Assembly: GCF_026151205.1 (NCBI RefSeq)
Contig: NC_087078.1
Coordinates: 19,582,265-19,642,264 of the forward strand
Source: Bolinopsis microptera
Taxonomy: Eukaryota > Ctenophora > Tentaculata > Lobata > Bolinopsidae
Direction: 5' to 3'
Length of the DNA: 60,000 bases
In this document: one piece after another, positions 37,476 to 45,883 of the stretch
How the letters are laid out: each line of letters starts with the position of its first letter
Position numbering within the stretch: the first letter of the stretch is position 1
Position numbers and translations under genes: made by a program
The notes under the pieces: generated by a model
What the model was told of the DNA's origin: nothing
The model's input: the letters and a program-made list of their open reading frames with translations, nothing else
Database searches by the model: none

Positions 37476-38129
37476 TGTGTTTTCTTGATTTAAAACAGCT
37501 AACAATTTTCCCAAAATAATAGGATGATAAACGTGCAGATTTCACCTTTATTTTGCACGTTTCTTTTTATTTCCTGCAGAATGGATATTTTAGAGATTAA
37601 CTAAAGATTTTAAACTTTTCCACGAGATTTCTCAACCAGAACCATATTTCATGGTACCACTGGAAAAGCGGGTAACTACTAAGATTGTCACCGTTTCCTA
37701 CAAGTATCCAGCTAGGTTATGGTACTTATTGTCCACATTAAAAACACCTGAGTCAATAAAGGTCGTTTATTCATTATTTAACCATGATAACTTTGTACAA
37801 GTATAGTATATATATGGTATTTTATTATAAGCACCTTGATGAATGTGTATTATTGATTACTAGTTTTTCAAATCGATCGATCACATGAATATCACATAAA
37901 TTTGAAATCTTCGTTTGTAAATGATATTTCAACAGCCAATACAAAAGTGCTAGACCATTTTACGAAAATATGACACACTTAAATTATAAGGGGCCATCTA
38001 CTTAGGACGTTTGCCAAAATCGCAGAATTTCAGACCACCCCCTCCCCCTGTCCGGGTGTGTCCGAAATTTCAAAACCACCCCCTTCCTCCCCCGGACGTC
38101 CGGATTTCCAGCTACTTTTAAGGGCTCTT

Positions 38130-38400
38130 ACTAATTCGCTCGCCCAAAAATTATTACGTGACTTTGGTTTTTATTGTTTTGCAGCCGAACAAAACGGTTT
38201 TACATAAACCCTAATCCTAACCTTAACCATAAACCCAAAGCTATCCATAACCATAACCACTACCCTAACCCTAACGGTAACCTGAGCCCTAAACAATCAA
38301 ATTCGTGTTCTACTAGCGTGTCACGTGACCAAAACAGTTTTTTGCCCATAACTTTCCAGGGAAGTTATTTTTGTCCTACTACTCTAGTAGCAGGGAGGAA
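38130..38400 (+). repeat. Left-end copy of the CGCTCGCCCAAA repeat with telomere-like core
   Basis: TTCGCTCGCCCAAAAATTAT, CAGCCGAACAAAA, then degenerate CCCTAA/CCATAA repeats, then GTGTCACGTGACCAAAACAG. It matches the complement of 53200-53395. It lies inside the large transposon. Confidence 0.75.
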
Positions 38401-38930
38401 TTGAGTGTGCACTTCGATGTACAGAGTTTTTTTCTGCTGAATCGGGTTAAATAGGCCATTGGTAACTCAAATCACCGAGGGGCAAATATTGTCTCGCTAG
38501 TCCCAACCCTGTGGAGCCACGCCCATATTTCATATTAGGCGCTTATTTGGGAAATTCCTATCTCAGCTTCTGAAGTGCTTAGAGACTTGAAATTGGGCTT
38601 AAAATGACCGCAATACACATGTTTATATTAGCACTATGAAGGTATTAAAGCTCTCAGGGACTTACTTTTTGAGAAAAATGGAAAAAACTAATTTTCACTG
38701 GGGCGCGATGAGGATGACATGCTTTAAGCTACTAAAATTCATAAAGTTGAGTACATAATATTGTGAAAAGAAACCAATGTGCTGATTTAATCTGCCAGAA
38801 GAGCAACAACATTAACAAAAGCTTACAAATGAAAATAACTGATTAACTGAAACACACACATCTTTTACCTGAACTTTTACAAAGAGACATTACAATATCT
38901 GCCCATATAACTCAAAATAAGTTCAATCTC

Positions 38931-41900
38931 CTATTCCACATTATTGATTGGGTTTTTGCACATTTCACCACATTTGCAATAATTAGAGCATGCATATTGT
39001 TTCTGTCTGCATGGGCAGGTGATCCTGACACAGGATTTACATTTACATGGTTCAGGTATATCAATTGGTCTTTGTGGAGGCACAAACCAAGTGGGAGATA
39101 AGTTGATGTCGTATCCGTATTCTGTAACATCAAGGATTTTAGATGCATCCCCTGTTGCAGCTTCGAGCCACAACCTTGCTTGGAAGTATGCCCTTCGAAT
39201 ATGCTGCCTTATTTCATTAGACGAGCATGGAAGATCCACAAACCTTACGTTTCTTGTTTGCTGCCGCATTCTTAGTCTAAGTTCGTCAAAAGTTGCACAG
39301 TTCATGAATGCCTTGTTAGCTACTACTTTTACCAAAAATTGTTCTGCCTTTTCAAACATGTCCTCGTCAAGTACATCCAATCCAAAATCCGTAATGAAAT
39401 GGCTGTACTGCTTAAGAGCTTTCAACAAAGCCAACTTTGTGCCAACTTTTGAGACAGTGTCACAACCTGTCAATGCGTGTCCTGCTGGCAGGCTTCTCAC
39501 TAGACTAGAATCGACTTTGCTCAGTAGCAAGTGTAAAGGATGTAATTCTTTTTGCTGTATTGTCTTTACTTTAAAATCACCCTTTCTGAGCAAGTAAAGA
39601 TTAAGACCATGCCATGCACTTTGGAGATAGTAAAGAAGGTTTACGAAAATGTCTGTGTCAGGTGACACAACAGAGACACAGCAACTTTCTGTTGACAAAG
39701 CATGAATCTTACTGATCGAAAACATAATACGATCATCAGCCTCTTCGTGAGATGCCCTAAATTCTATCGCTTCATTTATAACACCATCTGAAATCACTGT
39801 GCATTTATCTGGGTCCGATTTTATGCCTCCTGCCAAGTATAGTGGCTTTTCTGATGTGTAGTGAGAAGAGCAATATTCTACAAAAAAGTTCTGATAACTG
39901 ATTTTGTTGGACTGTCTGTCAAAGAAATCATCCAAAGGAGATGGTAAGGACTGTTCCTCGGACACCACCTCACAAACAGCACCTACATTCAAATTGCCGT
40001 CTTTGGTTGCCCTGGTTACTCGTGCTGCTCCTTTGATAGACATGTCTTTATAGTTTTCTAGAATAATATGTATCTGCTCACTTTGCTGCCCATATGAAGT
40101 CACGTTATTCAGAATTTTCTCACAGAACGAGCCGAAGGTTTTGACACCTGTTAACTTGACTGATGTCCATTTCCTGATAATCGCCATAAAATCAATTACA
40201 ACTGCTGTCGTTTTTACATGAGGTAACTGATTGGTCTCGTTAACCACAATCGATTCCTTGTCAAGTAATTGTAACAATTGCTTGGCAAGATCTGATTTGG
40301 GGGCTTTCTTTTGCTTCAGTGAATCTTTCTCTAGTAGATAAACTGGACGTGAAGTTAAAGGATAAATGATCAGTTCCTCCAATCCCCATCCCCTGGATGC
40401 TGCATACTCGATAAAGTTCACTGCAGATGTATTTAGTTGGTCGTCTGTGAGCACCTTAACCTTCTTCTCTTTAGCCATTACATTGGATTCAATGGACATA
40501 TAAGAAGACTGATACTTGAAGCTTATGGAGGCATGCAAGCTCTTGCTTTTATCAAATAAACGGTCTTGGACGAATTCGCCATAGTTTGCTCGTCCAAATT
40601 CGACACAGTCTAGTAGGTATTCTCGATTCGCCACGACTTCACGACTTGTCAGATTAATCAGCTGATCAGGGCTATCAACTTTAAACGGATTGCCAACAGT
40701 TTTGATGTAAGCAACCAGTTTATCTGCTCGGGACTTACCCTTCTCTGCTGACTTTGGATTGAACTCGTGGTGCAGATTGTTCAGCTCTCCCTGGTGTTCA
40801 CCAATGCTTGCTGTTTCTTTCAGGAAAGAGACGAACAAGTCTTTGTGATGTTTGATGATATTCCAGAGAGCCACTGTTTCTTTCTGACGAGTTGATCCAA
40901 TGATACCACCAGATGCCTTAGCCGTGAAATTGTATGCCTTTTCAAGGGCCTGGTCAAATCCTATTGCACTTCCTTTGCGCTCTGATAAGTAACAGACAAA
41001 GTTCCCGTCTTTGAAGTGCTTGTGTAGAGCTGGGAATTTTCTCTGTATATCCAAACAATCTTGATAAAAGAGGGCTCCATATCTACTGTAATTTGGCTTT
41101 CCTGTGCCAAAGAAGATTCCTAAGCTCCTTTCCACTGCAGAGAGAAACAGCTCCCAGTTTCCAGTCCGGACGGATACCTCAAAGTCTCTTGCACATGGGA
41201 ACATGTCTCTCAGAAAAATTTCCCAGTAGAGAAAGTTTTCATTTCCGCTATTAGATCCTTTAAACTGAAGAAATGCCTTGTGTAGTCTGTCCAATGAAAC
41301 CTTGTAACTTTCCCAACAGCTTTCAAAGTCGTTTTCGTCAGAGTTATCATAGACTTTTTTTAATACTTGTTCAATGTCAAACTCTATATCGTCAAGATTA
41401 ATTTCCTCCTTGCATAAAATAAATTCATCGCTTTCGAGAAAAGCTTCATATTGGAGGCGTAAAATAGACTCCGCAATCATATTAATACCATCTTTTGCTT
41501 TGATGTAATCACCTCCTTTCAGAACACTTGACAGTGCAACATCAGCTGCAAAGACTCCACACTTTTTTAGGGCTTCTCCAATTCCTGAGGGAATTAGCCA
41601 CTTTCCGATTGCACCCATGATTATCTTACTCCAATGGAACGGGCCAAGACCTAAAAATATTGACCCGAAAACTTCCGGTTTTAGTAGTTGTATGTCTTTT
41701 GCGAGACAGTACACCCCTTCATCACACCATAGTGCTCCAAAAGTTTCATAGAAGTGTAGATGCTGTCCATTAAGGTTGCGGGATATGGCAGTATCGGGAT
41801 AAATGATTTCGCTGTCATCATCCTAACTTCCCTAGATGTTAGTTTACTGAGCAAAGCAGTAAAATTGGGAATATCATTTGCACCTTTGAGTCTGGAAACA

Positions 41901-44589
41901 AACCATGCAAAGAAATCGTCGTTCACTTCAGTCAACATTGAGTACTTGTGTATGTGATCAGTTATTGGCGAGAACTCCTCGTTTATTTCTCCTGAATTTT
42001 TAGCAAGCTGCGACGTCATTAGCTGCTGGCAAGGTAATGTGTGCTGCAAACTCCGCTTTCTGTCCACAGCGTATTTGGTCGTGTCACGCTTACTCATAGT
42101 CCTTGGTTCCATATCTTCATCTTTTCCATTTGCATTCTGCCATATGACAAGAACGGTGTCGTTGCTGACATCTCCTCCTCTATCAGTTCTTTCTCTGTGG
42201 TTGAAATTATCCACAGCTCCTTGGATTGGAATTCCACGTTTTATGGAATTATTGACTGGGCATCGATCCTTCCCCGCAGTATCGATATCTGTCTGAGCCA
42301 TTTCAATATCGTCTCTCTTCATTGAATCGTAGCCTGTTCCAAAGCCGAACCTGTTGATGATATCAATAAGTTCTCTTGACTTAGTCAGACAGTGAACAGC
42401 TTGTGTTATGCCACAATGCATCGGTGTCTTAAGACCAGAGATCCAACAAGAAAAGAACTGAAATGATGCATCAAATTTCAGAAACCACGAATCTCCCTGC
42501 GTCACTTTTCTGCCAGAGAAAAGTTTTGAGATAAACTTAAACCATTGAGGCGGTCTTGCATCTTTGAATCGCTCTAAAGATATAGCCAGATCACTAGGCA
42601 AGCACAGACTGTCCTCCAATTCAAACTTGTATGAACTGATCTCAGCTGACAAGATTTTTGCACATTCCGTAATTGCATCACGATCTCTAAGGTTATGTTC
42701 AATAATTCCAGATACTGGAACTGATGACTTGAACACTATCTGAGACACAGATCTGTCTTTAGGATAGGAAAATGATATATCATCTCCAAAGTATTTAATT
42801 AGATTGAATTTTGTAGCTCGATTATTGAAATTAAGATCTAGAACATTGTTTATACTGTCTGTGATATCAGTCAGCTTGTAAGCTTGAGTTTGGAAATCAA
42901 GCTTTTCGAATACCTCCTTCAATCCGTCGTCGTGAATATTCTCTTCACTTTCTCTAAGAAAATTGTTCATAAGTTTTTCAACCTGTCTCTCATAAGAAAG
43001 CAGGTATGAGCACATGCATGCACTGTGATAGTAAATGTCAGCTGCAAGGATGTCACCTATGGATTGGCAATAAATATATTGCCTGTAGAGATGATCTTCG
43101 TTAAAGGCCATTGCACTCAAAAATTTTGAAGCCCGTGTGGTTCCCATTTTCATCTCAGAAACTCTGTATAGATGTGAGGTTTGATTTGGCCATGATCCTG
43201 CTTGATGCTTTTGGCAGATGGAACATTTTGTTGCTTTTGATCTTTTACTCAGTTGGTCAGGTATCTCTCCGCTTGCTGATCTAGATCTGGTGCTTTCACG
43301 TTTTCTCTTTGTAGTTTCACAGGAACTTCCTTCTTCTTCTGGAGATTGATCTTTCGGTGTTGATTTTGGTTTAAATCGTTTGGTTGTTCTCATATAATTC
43401 TTAAAACACTGCTTTGGACTTTTCATTTTATTGGACTTAGACTGGTTGTGGAAGCGAAAAGTGTCAGGACATTTAGCAATGTTGTTTAGAACTTTACTAT
43501 CTCCCATTTTTATGGCAGCTTCGTATACTAGCTTTCGTTTATCGTCATCTCCTGTAGAATTAAGTATCGTCACGTTTTAAAACAGTAGTAAAGCTCAATA
43601 CTACTTTTAAGTTACTCTGTTAGTAACAAACATAGATCAATTAAACGTGATTCGATTCGTATTTAACTAAAATGTAACTATCTTTACTATAATTTTACTG
43701 TAAGAATTTAGTAAATTTATTTTACCTCGTAAATCACGCTCTGGATATTTTTCTTCTTTTTCACATAAAACACATACTCGGTTTGCATTCGTGCCTTCTG
43801 CAAGTTTTGCTCTTTCTTTTAAGAGGCTTATTCCTTTGAATTTGGATTCAGGACCCGTTTCACTAATCTAAAAAATAATGACATTGAAGGACCCTTTTTT
43901 TGTTACAAAATCCGAATAGCACGAATGAGTAAATTATAGGAGTCTAAAAGCTACGTCATAGTGATTTAATTAATTCCAGAATAGAATTTTTGAAATGGTT
44001 AGCCTACTCAACTGATTAGGTAATTAATGAAGACTGTTTTAACCTACATTTATTCCTGATGGTCCTGGAATTTCATCGTCAACAGGAGGTGGAGAAGACA
44101 CTCTGGGAACAGCATCTTCTGATATACTAATCTCTAGGTCCTAAATTTATTAGACCCATCATCACGAAGTAATTAAATACAAAAATATCATATTCACGAA
44201 AGAGATATTCATAGTAAGTGCAATACTGAACTTAATATTTAAGGAAATTCGAAATAACTGAGTCGACCATCAAACTTACACCATCTAAAGCATTGATTGA
44301 AACACGATGATATGTCACCCTCCTAGCACTCTGCCTTCTCAAAAGCCACTGTTTGCGTGACCACAATATCAACACAAAACAACCTGAAAGTCGATGCTCT
44401 TAGCTCTTCGATATTGCTTTATTATACAAACTGCGTAGATAGCAATAACTTATCAATAAATACACTGATGATTATAGGAACTAACTTCAAGCAACAATAT
44501 AATCGCTAAAGTAACGTCTGAAACTTACCAAGTATCACACAAAGACCCCAAAGAGTAACAACTGGAATGACAACAAACCAAGCATTCAT
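38931..44589 (-). CDS. Transposon protein: hydrophobic N-terminus, zinc fingers, FEN1/PIN-like nuclease, CXC domain
   Basis: Five exons: 44529-44589 (ATG), 44280-44383, 44048-44140, 43726-43867 and 43551-38931. All introns are GT-AG and phases agree (1, 0, 0, 1). Exons 1-2 give a hydrophobic segment (MNAWFVVIPVVTLWGLCVIL, then FVLILW) followed by a basic stretch. Exon 4 has CVLC, exon 5 KCSICQKHQAG and YYHSACMCSY, likely zinc fingers. The last exon has a 1-nt frameshift at the C4 run 41714-41717. Past it, counting from 41714, come FMAIIRKW, EEADD (657-661), PDTD (685-688) and ALTGCDTVSK (Asp 752). These fit the acidic EAD...D.D...GxD pattern of FEN1/XPG nucleases, but this is inferred from motifs. 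A CXC/tesmin-like cluster (CKCKSC...CKCGEMCKN) ends it. About 1,670 residues. Confidence 0.72.
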
Positions 44590-45442
44590 ATTCACGACAA
44601 GGTTTCACTGCTGAACCAAGAAGTAGGCGAAATTGGTACACGTTTCAAAATAACTGTCGAGTACTGTTGAGAATTCCAGAGGCAGGGTATCCAGTTACGT
44701 AGGTTAATCTCAAAGGTTGTGAAAGATAACTCAAAAATTGTAATTTAGTAGTAAGCACGGTACAATCAAGAAACAATGTTTCACAGTGGAATATAATACG
44801 ACAGCAACAAAGTAGGTATTTCTACTTTGTATTACAAAAGCGCTAATTATACCTGTTTCAAAAGCATCCTGTCTGGAAGTTCCCTGACTGCCGTGTGAAT
44901 CTTTAGATCTATTTTTTGATCTATTTTTATATTGATATGATTTTTATATACCTATATATTCATCGCATAATTTCCATGTACGCCTGAACAAACCTGGCAC
45001 CATCAAATCTTACATGGAAACCCCAGAACTATTTAAAATATAAATAAATATTTAACTTTCACAATATTATATACTCAACTTCGTGAATTTTAGTAGCTTA
45101 AAGCCTGGCATTGCCATCGCGCCTCAGTGAAAATTTAGTTTTTTTCATTTTTCTCAAAAAGTAAGTCCCTGAGAGCTTTAATACCTTCATAGTGCTAATA
45201 TAAACATGTGTATTGCGGTCATTTTAAGCCCAATTTCAAGTCTCTAAGCACTTCAGAAGCTGAGATAGGAATTTCCCAAATAAGCGCCTAATATGAAATA
45301 TGGGCGTGGCTCCACAGGGTTGGGACTAGCGAGACAATATTTGCCCCTCGGTGATTTGAGTTACCAATGGCCTATTTAACCCGATTCAGCAGCAAAAAAC
45401 TCTGTACATCGAAGTGCACACTCAATTCCTCCCTGCTACTAG

Positions 45443-45600
45443 AGTATACGTCATGAGGGGTGATTCGGAATCACTATCAGCGTCCAAAAATACACCGGGA
45501 CAGATTTCATTTATACCTTCAGGGCCTTTTCACAAGAATTCTCTTGAAATTTGGGCGAGCGATTTAGTGGGAGCGACTTTTAAGGGTACGAATAAAACTC
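45443..45600 (+). repeat. Right-end copy of the CGCTCGCCCAAA repeat
   Basis: GATTCGGAATCA, GCGTCCAAAAATACACC, CAGGGCCTTTTCACAAGAATT and AAATTTGGGCGAGCGATTT. It matches the complement of about 53045-53160, that is, the other half of the same family. Confidence 0.75.
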
Positions 45601-45883
45601 GGCTCTCATGAGCTGCTCTGGGAATCGACTTCTCGTTCAAAATACAGGGATCTTAACTTACAAAGTAATTAGTGTCGAAGAGTTGAAATAAATGGAACTT
45701 TTTCGTTAATTCTGACAAAATTTCCGGATTTTCAGAAACCACCCCCCTCCCCATGTCCGGATTTGTCCGAAATTCCAAAACCACCTGCACCCCCTCCCTA
45801 TTTGCCGGACGTCCTAAGTAGATGGCTCCTAAGTCCTAACACATATTTGATATTTTGGAATGAAGTTGATCTGAATTCAATTT

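Follow-up and report, generated by a model that had tools for sequence, protein, structure and literature searches.

DNA transposons of the Academ superfamily are counted among the DDD/E superfamilies in a passage of PMC9587614, and a RecQ helicase is mentioned for them in a passage of PMC3627910. Two kinds are described in a part of PMC10045372, viz., AcademX, with target duplications of 3-4 bp and an encoded nuclease, and AcademH, with duplications of 9-10 bp and an encoded helicase. Here we describe a transposon of the ctenophore Bolinopsis microptera, located in a stretch of 60,000 nucleotides (NCBI RefSeq assembly GCF_026151205.1, contig NC_087078.1, positions 19,582,265 to 19,642,264 of the forward strand; hereafter the window, with positions counted from its first letter), which is most likely of the AcademX type. 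We place it by its described features as a new example of this little-studied group, because its 3-bp target duplication and XPG-like nuclease signature fit the published description of AcademX. An earlier reading of the window from its letters alone (the original prediction) had already recognized an intron-bearing DNA transposon here, and this is borne out by the genome copies, the empty site and the retained GT..AG borders discussed below.

The ends of the transposon are defined by its copies. A genome search with window positions 38340-38560 gave at least 41 matches, with 40 of the 628 candidates scored, most of which start at query positions 35-46 and a few at 18-31, position 41 of the query being window position 38380. 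Nineteen loci were fetched from these matches (L001-L004 and L006-L020), and all of them share with the window the left end TACTC(T/C)AGTAGCAGGGAGG at the equivalent of 38380. The right end at 45446 is common to the 15 two-ended fetched loci except L001, in which it is altered; L014, L017, L018 and L019, whose pieces contain no right end, were left out. Of the 16 two-ended elements thus compared (the window and these 15 loci), 15 have flanks that agree over exactly 3 bp and none has a 4-bp match; the exception is L001, whose flanks do not match. The alignment of many flanks, which the original prediction had proposed for defining the target duplication, gives 3 bp. The same prediction had set the ends of the element at 37990 and 45829 and had named copies ending elsewhere as the observation that would speak against them; the genome-wide search and flank alignment place the ends at 38380 and 45446, which by this standard refutes the predicted boundaries. 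Its second, 370-bp inverted repeat is real, though not secondary, as it is the transposon's own terminal repeat of about 390 bp, with arms that are 99% identical over 316 nt (38380-38695/45131-45446) and continue at 86% (38682-38768/45057-45143). The sizes of the 16 two-ended elements span 2.3 to 7.4 kb, and shortened copies are therefore common. Copy L001 is 99.6% identical to the window element over 7,062 bp and lies at a different site; the transposon has been recently mobile in the B. microptera genome.

A site without the transposon is also found. At locus L005, the sequence that ends at 38379 on the left of the transposon is joined directly to that which starts at 45447 on its right, with an overlap of 3 bp. 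A wider piece of this place (L042) matches the window flanks in inverted orientation, spanning about 3.9 kb of the left flank and 1.8 kb of the right, in pieces of which the main ones are 88-94% identical to the window flanks, with gaps between them. This duplicated segment, about 219 kb away, is an empty site, at which the target is TAC.

The terminal sequence also occurs in other arrangements. It has 1,541 genome matches at up to two mismatches (control, 1), and among the matches listed those with one mismatch all fall within two stretches of C1. These stretches, C1:29100-30000 (L046, 25 copies) and C1:738100-738900 (L047), are tandem arrays of a 28-bp unit, the first 19 bases of which equal the transposon terminal sequence but for one base. 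Separately, a 341-bp unit is present in 3.7 tandem copies in the shortened copy L008 (2039-3279).

The five-exon gene on the minus strand that was originally predicted holds up. In the predicted model, four short exons join in frame to a long exon starting at 43551, and by eye the GT..AG borders are retained in the alignment of three near-identical copies (L001, L002 and L003, the last of which is without the first 43 bases of the alignment) and of L029, which has about 80% DNA identity over the aligned 5' region. In the window the long exon is broken by a 34-nt deletion in the overlap of the frames 41681-43576 and 38931-41822, which is absent from L002, L003, L018 and L029. An intron between these two long frames near 41714 was considered and rejected, the interruption being this deletion. 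The sister copy L001 carries another deletion in exon 5, likewise of 34 nt, which overlaps that of the window. A single frame of 1,559 amino acids runs through exon 5 in L002 and L003; open frames span 1,559 residues at C9 and at C6, and 1,557 and 1,569 residues at C13 and C2. Where the window's deletion is absent, the protein is predicted to comprise about 1,680 residues. The deletion has probably inactivated the copy in the window, which would then need protein supplied by another copy in order to move.

The gene is under purifying selection, judging from its codon substitutions. The ratio of nonsynonymous to synonymous divergence (dN/dS) between L003 and L029, which are 92% identical, is 0.13 over 1,556 codons, with 0.126 for the nuclease and 0.104 for the middle region; the values for the other unsaturated pairs lie between 0.09 and 0.23. 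For the distant pairs L021/L024 and L003/L028 synonymous divergence is saturated and gives no ratio. The predicted N-terminus (exons 1-2, 44589-44280) is strongly hydrophobic, with a Kyte-Doolittle value of 2.6 over 19 residues in the window and 2.4 in L029, and is followed by basic residues; this membrane-anchor-like arrangement is odd for a nuclear enzyme.

The C-terminal part of the protein likely contains a nuclease of the FEN1/XPG type, an assignment that we judge likely because of its acid signature. The nuclease of AcademX elements is of the XPG type, and the catalytic acids of FEN1/XPG nucleases follow the order D, D/E, (E/D)-A-D, D-x-D, G-x-D, which is also seen in the FEN1 sequences that we compared. 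In an alignment of nine paralogs, eight of which are 16-58% identical to the ninth, L003, the invariant columns are D24, Y71, K120, A175, D176, D202, D204, G266, D268, K276 and L280, and the invariant acids D24, D176, D202, D204 and D268 fall in VID, EAD, DTD (DxD) and GCD (GxD). The EEAD, PDTD and GCD motifs of the XPG/FEN1 pattern, as first noticed in the window, are thus real and their core acids invariant, the A-D, D-x-D and G-x-D being constant and the other letters variable. A further acid, before Y71, is D in most paralogs and E in L003 and L028. When the nuclease profile was compared with 177,635 distinct PDB sequences, five matches were listed, the top four of them exonuclease 1 (best E 0.23), with VFD and GCD in register. 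Against archaeal FEN1, a profile-profile comparison yielded P 0.014 (50 columns around GCD; probability 3%), and against an enlarged FEN1/XPG set P 0.007 (46 columns around GCD; probability 6%). Three controls of the latter, made with reversed or middle-region profiles, yielded P 0.30, 0.80 and 0.44. NYN_YacP, a PIN-related family, matches one of the nine paralogs weakly (E 0.097). A genome-wide search with Pfam XPG_I found seven matches, none in the transposon. The CXC domain of the original prediction is supported by a Pfam TCR match to the C-terminal cluster in two of seven paralogs, L003 not among them (best E 3e-5); LIN-54 matches the whole-protein profile at E 0.045. DUF6589 reaches 12.2 bits (E 0.07), below its curated cut-off of 27 bits, and E 0.088 in one of seven paralogs, and its two matches in a genome search are both under the cut-off and outside the transposon.

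Upstream of the nuclease lies a conserved set of residues that is a candidate for a DDE/D transposase core. In the middle region of seven paralogs D27, N28, G38, Y178, D201, G227, H230, G240, S246, G247 and G270 are invariant, and the putative core consists of the invariant DN, the second invariant D, G-x-x-H, and an acid just past the invariant SG. In the five paralogs that are not of the window's lineage, S-G is followed by I, V, L or F, and the next residue is acidic (E in four of them and D in L036). The whole-protein alignment (A1) and the middle-region alignment (A5) place the row of L027 differently around the first D. The view that the element has no DDE signature is hence unsupported, as this D...D...GxxH...acid set is present in seven paralogs, and the conserved residues of the middle region would fit a DDE/D transposase. 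Other matches to this region are Regnase_1_C in Pfam (E 0.17, two of seven paralogs) and two PDB matches to HIF-1 alpha (E 0.37), which we take as chance.

Several observations weigh against these assignments. The second nuclease acid is E and not D in the window's subfamily and in L028; the exonuclease 1 match stands at E 0.23, and its VFD and GCD stretches alone at E of about 1,200 and 3.2; the hhalign probabilities in the FEN1/XPG comparisons are 3 and 6%. None of the five PDB matches of the whole-protein profile belongs to the XPG family, and no Pfam XPG match was found in the nine paralogs, where the best match is DUF1719 (E 0.0035, one member). Single-sequence structure prediction for the C-terminal 424 residues of the window protein gave a confidence (pLDDT) of 31.8, too low to be informative. 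The middle region matches no transposase family in Pfam and no fold in the PDB, and its third candidate acid comes one residue later in L003 and L028 (SGIGE as against SGxE). Neither enzyme domain reaches statistical significance and neither fold is proven. The placing in AcademX, finally, is based on the published description of that group.

This last point leaves some room for a different placing, in which the transposon belongs to another known DDE superfamily, or is a sister of AcademX that acquired a nuclease fusion of its own. Such a placing is also favored by the terminal sequences, which differ among the related families in the genome. We nevertheless regard it as unlikely, since AcademX, as described in the pertinent passage of PMC10045372, combines a duplication of this length with an encoded nuclease. 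The same protein has further families in this genome, represented by long matches whose identity ranges from 58% to 24%. Three of their copies (L021, L022 and L024; protein about 28-30% identical) have the ends TATCTG...CAGATA, and their flanks partly repeat one another in inverted orientation; CAG is compatible with a 3-bp duplication in L022 but not in L021 or L024. Beyond this genome, no relatives were confirmed in phages or in viral contigs, where three of the searches covered only a few exact peptides of single proteins. For the host's own enzymes, no relatives of the XPG segment were found in the bacterial and archaeal genomes searched, nor of the FEN1 exon in the plasmids or phages searched.

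Somewhat less probable still, and in our estimate very unlikely, is that the FEN1/XPG-type nuclease is itself the recombinase that cuts the ends, with the invariant upstream D, D and GxxH serving another role. The invariance of the nuclease acids in nine paralogs and the middle region's lack of matches to transposase families and to the PDB speak for it, and if true it would mean a new class of transposon, devoid of a DDE core and with a metal-dependent flap nuclease as recombinase. Against it stand the DDE-like invariant residues upstream of the nuclease and the short staggered duplication with terminal inverted repeats, a combination usual for DDE elements. AcademX, moreover, already explains the pairing of a transposase with a nuclease. 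As an element with both enzymes and a 3-4 bp duplication is already known, a new mechanism, including one apart from DDE as originally considered, need not be invoked.

The outermost matched ends have another origin. The 21-bp ends near 37990 and 45829 and their TAA flanks, on which the original prediction was built, are present, but belong to an abundant short host mini-element, which we take to be of the Harbinger type. An 18-bp piece of the end has 490 genome matches with at most one mismatch (252 forward and 238 reverse; none for the reversed pattern as control), and among 100 listed places many form pairs of opposite orientation with a few hundred bp between them. Two such pairs were inspected, of which L048 is flanked by TAA and L049, by eye, seemingly by TTA. 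Inside lies a second mini-element, presumably of the hAT type as its 8-bp flanks suggest, which is itself repeated in the genome (at least 42 matches with the query 37950-38379, from 40 scored of 2,087 candidates). Three mobile elements are thus nested, the transposon inside the middle mini-element and this inside the outer one (Table 1). That the mobile unit is the outer element of 37990-45829, whose ends are indeed real, matched and TAA-flanked, deserves practically no credence, since these ends recur as closely spaced opposed pairs and the 19 fetched inner copies share the left end 38380 within other flanks, which refutes it. The nesting exemplifies how matched ends can mislead boundary calls.

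Table 1. Features of the transposon, its gene and the surrounding mini-elements (window positions)
Feature	Position	Strand	Remarks
Transposon proper	38380..45446		7,067 bp; gene on minus strand; genome copies start and end here; empty site in L005/L042
Left terminal inverted repeat	38380..38768	+	begins TACTCTAGTAGCAGGGAGG
Right terminal inverted repeat	45057..45446	-	
Target duplication TAC, left	38377..38379		3 bp; exact match in 15 of 16 two-ended copies
Target duplication TAC, right	45447..45449		3 bp
Exon 1 (predicted)	44529..44589	-	hydrophobic N-terminus
Exon 2 (predicted)	44280..44383	-	
Exon 3 (predicted)	44048..44140	-	
Exon 4 (predicted)	43726..43867	-	
Exon 5	38931..43551	-	stop codon included; broken in window copy by 34-nt deletion
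Frame with first candidate catalytic D (DNFNH)	41681..43576	-	
Frame with second candidate catalytic D, GxxH, SG-acid, then FEN1/XPG-type acids and CXC cluster	38931..41822	-	
Outer host mini-element	37990..45829		ends GGGGCCATCTACTTAGGACGT, TAA flanks; split by two insertions; short copies L048, L049
Middle host mini-element	38122..45575		8-bp flanks ACTTTTAA at 38114-38121 and 45576-45583; split by transposon; unsplit in L043, L044, L045

A single protein would combine a candidate DDE/D core, a FEN1/XPG-type nuclease signature and a C-terminal CXC zinc-binding cluster. This protein may bind the long terminal repeats, its DDE/D core would cut and join the ends with a 3-bp stagger, and the nuclease would perhaps trim flaps or branched intermediates. 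To our knowledge, the role of the repair-type nuclease of AcademX has not been tried at the bench; with near-identical copies bearing clean 3-bp duplications, some of which have long frames without the deletion, this transposon is a candidate for testing whether transposition needs the nuclease.

With AcademH, the transposon shares the superfamily as given in the literature, and it differs in having a 3-bp and not a 9-10 bp duplication and in the absence of helicase families at E 0.1 or better from the Pfam scan of seven paralogs. It resembles the FEN1, XPG and EXO1 nucleases in the order of its acids (D, D/E, (E/D)-A-D, D-x-D, G-x-D), whereas its nuclease signature is part of a transposon protein and has no significant sequence match; similarly, its acids are PIN-like, with no significant match to PIN proteins. 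With AcademX it has in common a target duplication within the 3-4 bp described; its XPG-type acid signature, which has no significant match, and its candidate DDE/D core would correspond to the encoded nuclease and the DDE transposase of the literature. The terminal repeats of about 390 bp and the hydrophobic N-terminus are further features of this transposon.

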